A stretch of 64,000 nt of DNA from an uncultured Bacilli bacterium. Lineage in GTDB: Bacteria > Bacillota_I > Bacilli_A > ML615J-28 > CAG-313. Below the pieces are notes generated by a model that did no database searches, was not told the DNA's origin, and was given only the letters and a program-made list of their open reading frames with translations. The translations under genes were made by a program, and so were the position numbers. Shown here piece after piece: positions 8,290 through 51,481 of this stretch. The stretch covers positions 1 through 64,000 of the forward strand of contig CATLBQ010000006.1 of assembly GCA_949879765.1 (NCBI GenBank), read 5' to 3'. Numbering within the stretch: position 1 is the first letter of the stretch; each line of letters begins with the position of its first letter.

Positions 8290-8360
8290 AAAAAGAAGTC
8301 CTCCTTGAAAAATTTTGTTGTAAAAAGCCATAACAGCGGTTTTTTTGATGATTCAATTGT

Positions 8361-8427
8361 ACCATAGTATTATCATTTACGGTGATAATGTAGAAACTCC
8401 CAAACCATATTATTGAGATTATATGAC
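8361..8427 (-). ncRNA. Purine riboswitch (guanine class)
   Basis: Reverse complement GTCATATAATCTCAATAATATGGTTTGGGAGTTTCTACATTATCACCGTAAATGATAATACTATGGT matches conserved J1/2, J2/3 and P3-J3/1 elements; ACTATG implies C74, i.e. guanine specificity. Confidence 0.93.
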
Positions 8428-8515
8428 TTTTACCCCTATATTATATAATAATCAAAAATGTTAGTAAAAGGTTTTTAATTAGAAAACGATTTCAAAAAAT
8501 CCCTTTCGCTTTTAA

Positions 8516-36982: not shown

Positions 36983-37006
36983 TTAATCCATTAGAATTGA
37001 TGAAAA

Positions 37007-37165
37007 CCAACTAGCGCCTCTACTTACGTAGGAGTGTTATAAGTATTTCTTATAACCCCATAAGATATGTATGCCTAAATATCTTATTCGGCGATGATTA
37101 CCTTTTACATTTTTCATTGCATGCCTGCTCCAAATGCTACTCATTTGCATCGCTACCTCTATTCA
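37007..37165 (-). ncRNA. Lysine riboswitch (L box)
   Basis: Reverse complement AGAGGTAGCGATGCAAATGAGTAGCATTTGGAGCAGG...AAAAGGTAATCATCGCCGAATAAG...CTCCTACGTAAGTAGAGGCGCTAG; conserved AGAGGT, GAGTA, TCGCCGAA and AGAGGCGCTA elements. Confidence 0.9.
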
Positions 37166-37248
37166 CTTTTTTGCATTTTAATTATAATTGAATGAATAAT
37201 GAATGTCAAAATAAATGCTTTGATAAAAAATAGGATGCGATTTGATGA

Positions 37249-47981: not shown

Positions 47982-49895
47982 ATGATTCAAATTACATTTC
48001 CAGATTTATCTGTTAAAGCATTTGAAGAAGGAGTTACTCCCCTTCAAATAGCTAGTGGCATTTCAAGTGGACTTGCCAAAAAGTGTGTGATTGCTCGATT
48101 CAATGATCAATTGGTTGATGTATCGAAACCACTCTATGAGGATGGAAAAATTGAGTTGATTACGGATGTATCTAATGGATATGAAGACCTGTTTAACCAT
48201 TCTTGTGCCCATTTATTGGCTGAGGCTATCAAAGCATTGTATCCACAAGCTAGGTTTGGTGTAGGGCCAGCTATCGAAGAAGGCTTTTACTATGACATGG
48301 ATTTAGGTGATATTCAATTGACAGAAGAAGATTTGCCTAAAATTGAAAAGAAAATGCAAGCCTTGGTGGCCGCAGGTGAGACCATTACCCGTTATGAAGT
48401 TTCTAAAGCTCAAGCGTTGTCTTTGTTCCAAGAAGATATCTATAAAACTGAAATTATTCAAGAACTTGAAAATGACGCTGTAATTACCATTTATGAACAA
48501 GGTAATTTCCGAGATTTGTGTAGAGGACCTCATGTATCGAGCACGAAATGGTTAAAACATTTTAAATTATTGAGTATTAGTGGCGCTTATTGGCGAGGAG
48601 ATGCATCCAAAGCCCAGCTACAAAGAATATATGGCACTTGTTTTGCAAGTGAGGAAGCTTTGAAACAACATTTGCACAACCTTGAAGAAAGAAAAAAACG
48701 CGATCATCGTAAATTGGGAAAAGAGCTTGATTTGTTTATGATCAGTGAATATGGTCCAGGACTTCCTTTCTGGTTACCGAATGGGTATATTTTACGTAGA
48801 ACACTAGAAGATTTTTGGATTCAACTTCATCGTGAAAAAGGTTATTCTGTCATCAATACACCGATTATGTTGAACCGTGAATTATGGGAAACATCGGGAC
48901 ATTGGGACCATTACAAAGAGGATATGTTTACCATTGATGTAGAAGATGGTACTTATGCCATTAAACCTATGAATTGTCCAGGAGCGATTTTGGTATATAA
49001 CAATGGTCTCCATTCGTATAAAGAATTACCACTTCGTTATGCGGAATTAGGAAATGTTCATCGTTATGAGGCAAGTGGAGCCTTAAATGGCTTATTTAGG
49101 GTTAGAGGATTTACTCAAGATGATGCACATACATTCCTTCGTGAAGATCAAATCGGAGAAGAAGTGGCAAAGATTATTTCATTATATGACGAAGTATATT
49201 CTGTATTTGGTTTAAATTATGCAATTGAATTATCTACTCGACCAGAAGATAATTTTATTGGTACAGTTGAAGTATGGGATGAGGCAGAAAAAGCCTTAAA
49301 AGAAGCTTGTCTTGCAACAGGGCATGCATTTAAAATTAACCCTGGAGATGGTGCTTTTTATGGTCCTAAATTAGATTTCAAATTGAGAGATTCAATGAAC
49401 CGAATTTGGCAATGTGGTACAGTGCAACTAGATATGCAACTACCTGGCCGTTTCAATTGCAAATATATTGCGGAAGACGGATCAAAACAAACACCAGTAA
49501 TGATTCACCGGGCTTGTTTTGGTTCATTAGAGAGATTTATTGGTATTATTACAGAACATTTTGCTGGCGCATTTCCACTTTGGCTTGCGCCAAGACAAAT
49601 GGTGATTATTCCAGTTAACGTAGAAGCACATGGTGCATATGCAAAAGAAATTGAAACGCTATTGCAACAAGCAGGTATCCGCGTTTCTATTGATGCACGT
49701 GATGAAAAAATGAATTATAAAATTAGAGAAGCTCAAATGAAAAAGATTCCATATACGCTTGTATTAGGAAATCAAGAACAAGAAAATCGTACGATTACAT
49801 ATCGTCATCATGGTTCAAATGAATCGTTTACAATGGGATTGAATGATTTTATTGAGATGATCATCACTGAAATCAAGACTTTAGGAAAAGAATGA
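47982..49895 (+). CDS. thrS: Threonyl-tRNA synthetase
   Basis: TGS domain, HSCAHLLAEA, MNCPGAILVY, class II motifs, anticodon domain. Confidence 0.97.
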   Translation: MIQITFPDLSVKAFEEGVTPLQIASGISSGLAKKCVIARFNDQLVDVSKPLYEDGKIELITDVSNGYEDLFNHSCAHLLAEAIKALYPQARFGVGPAIEEGFYYDMDLGDIQLTEEDLPKIEKKMQALVAAGETITRYEVSKAQALSLFQEDIYKTEIIQELENDAVITIYEQGNFRDLCRGPHVSSTKWLKHFKLLSISGAYWRGDASKAQLQRIYGTCFASEEALKQHLHNLEERKKRDHRKLGKELDLFMISEYGPGLPFWLPNGYILRRTLEDFWIQLHREKGYSVINTPIMLNRELWETSGHWDHYKEDMFTIDVEDGTYAIKPMNCPGAILVYNNGLHSYKELPLRYAELGNVHRYEASGALNGLFRVRGFTQDDAHTFLREDQIGEEVAKIISLYDEVYSVFGLNYAIELSTRPEDNFIGTVEVWDEAEKALKEACLATGHAFKINPGDGAFYGPKLDFKLRDSMNRIWQCGTVQLDMQLPGRFNCKYIAEDGSKQTPVMIHRACFGSLERFIGIITEHFAGAFPLWLAPRQMVIIPVNVEAHGAYAKEIETLLQQAGIRVSIDARDEKMNYKIREAQMKKIPYTLVLGNQEQENRTITYRHHGSNESFTMGLNDFIEMIITEIKTLGKE

Positions 49896-49944: not shown

Positions 49945-49978
49945 AAAAACGTCTCACTTTTTTGAGACGTTTTTCCTT
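49945..49978. terminator. Rho-independent terminator after thrS
   Basis: AAAAACGTCTCACTTTTTTGAGACGTTTTTCC. Confidence 0.85.
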
Positions 49979-50258
49979 TACAAATTTGTGTCGTTTATGG
50001 TATTATAATATGGTAAATTTGCTTGTGATTTAGATTTTTGCTATGCATTGGACCCCCTTGTTTGATGTAAATTGTTGGATATTTGGATGAAGTAAAATGA
50101 TCCTTTTTTCCTTTTTTAAATGAACAAAAAGCAAAAAAAAGAGACATGTTTATCGAAACAAATTGTAGGATTTTGTGAGAATGTATAGACTCATCCAAGT
50201 TTATTTTTTGTTTTTTAGACAAATTTGTCAAAAAATGCGTAACAAAAGTGTCAATTAC

Positions 50259-50287
50259 TTGCATAAATAGGACAAATTTGTTATAAT
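50259..50287 (+). promoter_or_regulatory. Sigma-A-type promoter of candidate sRNA
   Basis: TTGCAT-17 nt-TATAAT. Confidence 0.6.
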
Positions 50288-50292
50288 GTTGT

Positions 50293-50376
50293 TGTAAAGT
50301 AATTTTACTGAGGACAACTAGTGGGCTTCCCTGCTCTATCTTTGCCTAGTTGTCCTCACTAAGATTGCTTTTTTTT
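50293..50376 (+). ncRNA. Candidate small RNA with long hairpin and U8 tail
   Basis: AAGTAATTTTACTGAGGACAACTAG (50297-50321) pairs with CTAGTTGTCCTCACTAAGATTGCTT (50346-50370): one mismatch and two G-U wobbles; 24-nt loop TGGGCTTCCCTGCTCTATCTTTGC; poly-T. Confidence 0.6.
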
Positions 50377-50423
50377 CACCCTTTTGGACTTTTTGCATAT
50401 ACTAAGGTTGAGGAGGGGAAAGA

Positions 50424-50900
50424 ATGAATAATTTTAATAACTATGGAAAACGAATTGATTATGTAGAGTATACCGTAAAAAAAGGGGATACCCTTTATAA
50501 TTTGGCTAAAAAGTACGATACTACTGTATCTGATTTAACGGATATCAATATGCTTACATCATCAACAATATTTCCAGGACAAGTGTTGATTATACCAAAA
50601 CAAAGTGCTAGTGATGATGATTACTATTTTGAAAACTATACAGTAAAGCCAGGGGATACCATTGACGTAATTGCAACAAAGTTAGGTGTAGATCCAATTC
50701 TTTTGGGGCTATATAATGATTTTGCGGGATTCCAAATTATGCCTGAGCAAGTTTTAAAGATACCTCGCAACAATACGTATATTGTGAAACAAAATGATAC
50801 AGTGGATACAATTTTATCTTCAACCAATCGCACCGCAGACCAGTTACTTCGGGCAAATGCTGGAACATGGCTAAAATCTGGAAATAAGATCTATTTATAA
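50424..50900 (+). CDS. LysM-domain protein with about three tandem LysM modules
   Basis: VEYTVKKGDTLYNLAKKYDTTVSDL..., ENYTVKPGDTIDVIATKLGV..., NTYIVKQNDTVDTILSSTNRT... Confidence 0.88.
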   Translation: MNNFNNYGKRIDYVEYTVKKGDTLYNLAKKYDTTVSDLTDINMLTSSTIFPGQVLIIPKQSASDDDYYFENYTVKPGDTIDVIATKLGVDPILLGLYNDFAGFQIMPEQVLKIPRNNTYIVKQNDTVDTILSSTNRTADQLLRANAGTWLKSGNKIYL

Positions 50901-51296: not shown

Positions 51297-51358
51297 ACAT
51301 TCACCTCACTGATACTTTATTATAACATAAAAGAAAAAGGAGTACAAATGATATAACT

Positions 51359-51481
51359 TGTTACCTTCTGCTAACAAAAAAGTGTATTTTGGTTGCAATT
51401 GGTGGAGGGTAAGCGTATAATAACGTTGATGTTAGCGGTAGCTAACTAAAATTAAACGATACGTGTTAGTCTATGCTAACA
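51359..51481. promoter_or_regulatory. Three 18-bp palindromic operator candidates between the regulator and feoA
   Basis: TGTTACCTTCTGCTAACA (51359-51376), TGTTAGCGGTAGCTAACT (51430-51447), TGTTAGTCTATGCTAACA (51464-51481). Confidence 0.75.

Follow-up and report, generated by a model that had tools for sequence, protein, structure and literature searches.

Our analysis of the window, a 64,000-nt stretch of DNA from an uncultured Bacilli bacterium, indicates that the interval between thrS and a LysM-domain gene holds a real, conserved structured RNA element, which very probably makes a hairpin RNA of ~80 nt (a predicted transcript). This RNA is very likely a genus-specific sRNA, and we hold, at slightly better than even confidence, that it is XRE-repressed and acts in trans through a C-rich loop on Shine-Dalgarno (SD) sequences. 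The structure, conservation, compensatory changes, synteny, and operator-like sites described below were read from sequence.

The locus begins with a sigma-70-type promoter on the plus strand (50259-50287), comprising a −35 element, TTGCAT (50259-50264), a 17-nt spacer, and a −10 element, TATAAT (50282-50287), with a predicted start at about 50294-50296. The candidate sRNA (50296-50376, plus strand) is a long hairpin with a U8 tail, identified by its rank among T-run folds, by covariation in the genus, and by a model search. Specifically, the 5′ arm (50296-50321) pairs with the 3′ arm (50346-50371) to form, in order, 12 bp including two G-U pairs, a C·C mismatch (50308/50359), and 13 perfect bp, and the intrinsic terminator has a T8 run (50369-50376, plus strand), a T-run being conserved in each of the genus's five genomes. 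Hairpin, promoter, and U8 tail lie exactly where a sequence-only reading of this DNA had located them, and thrS, which ends at 49895, has its own terminator as that reading had stated, a terminator-like hairpin at about 49945-49974. The 24-nt loop (50322-50345) was described there as exposed; its C-rich part is exposed, but the loop is not open throughout, since a mini-hairpin of 3-4 bp had been overlooked. In particular, GGGC (50323-50326) pairs with GCUC (50333-50336) in a 4-bp apical mini-hairpin, GGGC-UUCCCU-GCUC (50323-50336, plus strand; called from pair probabilities in four distinct RNAs), so that UUCCCU (50327-50332) and UAUCUUUGC are what stays exposed in the loop.

The segment 50240-50380 folds with an energy of −42.2 kcal/mol (z = −5.2), and 0 of 200 shuffles folded equally well. 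When 78-nt segments ending at runs of six or more T were ranked on both strands of the window's own genome (n = 5306), the segment containing the hairpin had the lowest folding energy of all (−35.0 kcal/mol, rank 1). The second most stable T-run hairpin (−34.3 kcal/mol) lies on the minus strand of contig C27, at reverse-complement position about 5172, and its arms contain GACAAA and TTTGTC. A small-ORF check inside the RNA found no conserved reading frame through it, and the promoter region is overlapped by one listed ORF only (49995-50264, minus strand, 89 aa), which is without support.

The hairpin was compared across the five genomes of an Anaeroplasma-like genus, G000 to G004, of which G000 is the window's own. 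G000 and G001 are 99% identical here, leaving only four distinct hairpin sequences; the G001 locus matches a contig that was deposited under the name Anaeroplasma bactoclasticum. Because a DNA search returned only the near-identical G001 copy, the distant copies were located by synteny, through orthologues of the LysM gene (Pfam PF01476; 50424-50900, plus strand). Each of the five genomes has one hairpin copy, always between thrS and the LysM gene. A T-tailed hairpin precedes LysM in 5/5 genus genomes and does not do so in the family's other genera, in which the thrS-LysM gap contains neither hairpin nor XRE gene; in G008 and G009, for example, LysM comes directly after thrS.

The four distinct hairpins have diverged much in sequence with their plan unchanged: 12-14 outer pairs, one mismatch, 13-14 inner pairs, a 3-4-pair mini-stem whose loop is C-rich, a spacer, and a U tail. 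In the genus alignment, 97.7% of cells pair and 10 of the 27 stem pairs carry two-sided changes. This degree of pairing was reached by 0 of 500 shuffles, and sliding the partners by 1-3 columns left 37-58% paired. The comparative search thus bears out the proposed stem, which stays paired through compensatory changes within the genus. A covariance model built from the genus sequences found a single locus in each genome of the genus and nothing convincing in 38 other genomes of the order. A match in G031 (E = 0.009 per genome over 43 genomes) spans 35 nt only and was taken as chance, and reverse-strand matches at the same loci were expected because the hairpin is near-palindromic. Occurrence at one fixed place per genome, in single copy and with the same neighbours, rules out a transposable element or MITE, the origin that the sequence-only reading had named as an objection to its own proposal.

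A stem followed by a T-run is a textbook terminator, whose pairing would be kept for termination alone, and the hairpin might accordingly serve just as an insulator that halts stray transcription, the RNA itself being idle. We give this explanation a low probability: thrS already has a terminator, a promoter just 5′ of the hairpin would be purposeless, the stem is far longer than the genome's other terminator-like folds, and the C-rich apex and the mid-stem mismatch are kept, though unneeded for termination. An independent small RNA, as originally proposed, is instead well supported by the promoter, the terminator, the separation from thrS, and the compensatory conservation in five genomes, with the transcript as a prediction from these features.

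Comparison of the flanking DNA points to a regulator of the XRE/Cro type. In G002, G003, and G004, a divergent gene encoding such a protein (about 93 aa) lies between thrS and the hairpin. No XRE gene adjoins the hairpin in the window or in G001, a tblastn search found no trace of an XRE gene remnant in the window, and two XRE paralogues (43-51% identity) are present elsewhere in the window's genome. The closest of its paralogues (L098:3376-3640, contig C3 of G000) is divergent from a birA-like gene, and a strong inverted repeat beside this birA-linked gene resembles a BirA operator. Beside the XRE paralogues, no hairpins of similar type were found.

Three operator-like sites, with no strand assigned, lie at the hairpin promoter in the window: the palindrome GACAAATTTGTC (50218-50229), which is the genome's only perfect GACAAAWTTGTC; the imperfect AACAAAAGTGTC (50241-50252), which is the weakest of the three and lies 30 bp before the next; and GACAAATTTGTT (50271-50282), which sits in the promoter spacer and is placed relative to the −10 element as in G003 and G004. 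In those two genomes, the hairpin promoter is TTGATT-17-TATAAT; its spacer holds a GACAAAAWTGTG site, and 30 bp downstream of that site comes another operator-like site, a palindromic one. In the alignment, the window's −10 element is about 30 bp further downstream than theirs, at the second operator. G002 has an imperfect operator-like site only, with no perfect GACANNNNTGTC, and GACA...-like sites spaced by about 30 bp also occur at XRE paralogue promoters in relatives. Perfect GACANNNNTGTC palindromes number 22 in the five genomes, fewer than the reversed-pattern control in each genome, and 8 of the 22 lie either beside XRE genes or at the hairpin promoter (binomial 2e-19, a value overstated by the relatedness of the loci). 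A GACAAAATTGTC site in contig 54 of G004 was put aside because it is inside a gene. In viral contigs, AATAACTAGGNNGGCCCCCC was unmatched, and the XRE query returned 12 relatives with 32-57% identity. The distribution of sites suggests that GACANNNNTGTC is the likely XRE operator, with binding putative, and that the hairpin RNA is probably under XRE-type repression by the adjacent gene or by a paralogue; in the window's species, we infer repression by a paralogue.

The sequence-only reading had linked the hairpin to the nearby DtxR/feo locus, and dtxR and feoA do lie within 1.2 kb. An iron-regulated sRNA under DtxR is suggested by this position alone, and we regard it as highly improbable: DtxR-type repeats, GTTAGCGGTAGCTAAC, are found between dtxR and feoA and are absent at the hairpin promoter, where the palindromes are GACANNNNTGTC sites that track XRE genes instead. 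The DtxR/feo link is unsupported. In the dtxR-feoA interval itself (51333-51480), the GTTAGCGGTAGCTAAC inverted repeats are joined by related TTAG..CTAAC stretches, and both are plausible DtxR-type operators.

The apex of the mini-hairpin reads UUCCCU, UCCCU, CCCCC, or CCCCCU, depending on the RNA, and its probability of being unpaired is at least about 0.9 in each of the four distinct RNAs; the exact letters UCCC occur only in G000/G001 and G002. Candidate targets were sought by a duplex scan of the start regions of G000 (about 99%) and of about half of G003, with 486 orthologue pairs joined. The best joint match is an HTH regulator (G000:C18:9244, plus strand), with SD AGAGGGGGAAG and nine Gs in G003, whose joint rank product is below the minimum of all 40 shuffled-loop controls, a lenient control in that shuffling breaks the C-run. 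The match was rejected as proof of a dedicated target, the G-run SD also being found in several genera without the RNA. For this regulator (L149:9204-9244 on contig C18 of G000; L256 in G003), the run varies from GGGGG to nine Gs and is common to the genus and several other genera of the family, with an ordinary SD in G005, G006, and G009; the nine-G run of G003 could be phase-variable. The suggestion that the loop targets G-rich SD sequences thus retains a conserved, exposed C-rich loop, but target prediction gave no specific target.

The LysM gene is itself a possible target, in cis. Pairing of its SD, GAGGAGGGGA, with the window's loop is feasible: among start regions it ranks 26th of 1314 for G000 and 49th of 632 for G003, so a cis effect on LysM may exist. 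The hairpin could then be a leader or attenuator of LysM, at which XRE-controlled transcription stops unless read-through is allowed, and within that mRNA the C-rich loop may mask the LysM SD as well. Synteny with LysM, fixed in 5/5 genus genomes, argues for such a role; against it, LysM has a promoter-like site of its own after the hairpin (50375-50403), genera that lack the hairpin likewise carry the CATATANTA stretch ahead of the SD, no alternative antiterminator fold is seen in the short leader, and the LysM SD of G004, GAGGAGUGA, has lost its GGG run despite a six-C loop. We consider a leader function unlikely. At 50390-50424, as in LysM orthologues across the family, CATATANTA is immediately 5′ of the SD, placed as if the LysM promoter almost overlapped the ribosome-binding site.

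Under the favoured explanation of a trans-acting sRNA, the locus would produce a short hairpin RNA with its own transcription and intrinsic termination, restricted to one Anaeroplasma-like genus. A small XRE/Cro-type protein would repress the hairpin promoter from GACANNNNTGTC sites, and would be supplied by the divergent neighbour gene in three species and probably by one of the two paralogues in the window's species. Upon relief of repression, the RNA would accumulate, protected by its 25-28 bp stem, and its C-rich loop (UUCCCU here) would pair with G-rich SD sequences and block ribosome binding in trans. Action on SD sequences in trans is favoured because UCCC motifs have been described as SD-binding seeds in S. 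aureus, Listeria, and B. subtilis (PMC3961350; PMC4132741). A more elaborate history is doubtful, and we offer it as speculation: a cassette of XRE repressor and terminator-hairpin sRNA would have entered the thrS-LysM gap, would control by loop-SD pairing a regulon including the transcription factor with the G-run SD, and in one lineage would have outlived its adjacent repressor, the sRNA passing to a paralogous one.

Rfam 15 has no family reaching its gathering score at the hairpin, and permissive thresholds, applied to the window and G003, gave chance-level matches only, far below gathering scores; the Rfam check raised by the sequence-only reading therefore assigns the hairpin to no known family. 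Elsewhere in the window, a purine riboswitch (8345-8446) and a lysine riboswitch (37004-37169) are both on the minus strand. A search of the open-access literature found no small-RNA study of Anaeroplasma. The locus offers an sRNA candidate of conserved structure, together with its likely repressor and a seed open to testing. Were the favoured explanation true, the blocking of ribosome binding by a UCCC loop, described for Staphylococcus, Listeria, and Bacillus, would extend to a Mollicutes-related group, and the locus would be an example of an sRNA retaining operators after loss of the adjacent repressor gene.

The arrangement resembles that of E. coli DicF, an sRNA from a locus under the Cro/CI-type repressors DicA and DicC, in that a small RNA is found at a Cro/CI-type-repressor locus. 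DicF arises by processing of a longer transcript of a prophage operon, whereas no prophage genes were seen around the hairpin.

The loop invites comparison with low-GC Gram-positives, in which UCCC loop motifs bind SD sequences (PMC3961350; PMC4132741). Staphylococcus aureus RNAs of the RsaA/RNAIII type (PMC3961350) likewise have an unpaired UCCC seed and an intrinsic terminator in a low-GC Gram-positive-type genome, but they consist of several hairpins and have proven targets, whereas here there are one long hairpin, with its own apical loop as the seed, and candidate targets; the two have no sequence homology. In Listeria LhrC (PMC4132741), a UCCC motif in the terminator loop can bind the target SD, as is proposed here; LhrC, induced through LisRK, exists in five copies with three CU-rich sites, whereas the hairpin RNA described here has one copy and one site and is apparently XRE-repressed. 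Its own promoter and intrinsic terminator are present as sequence features, as in these RNAs, and it probably belongs to the known Gram-positive UCCC, or C-rich-loop, kind of sRNA.
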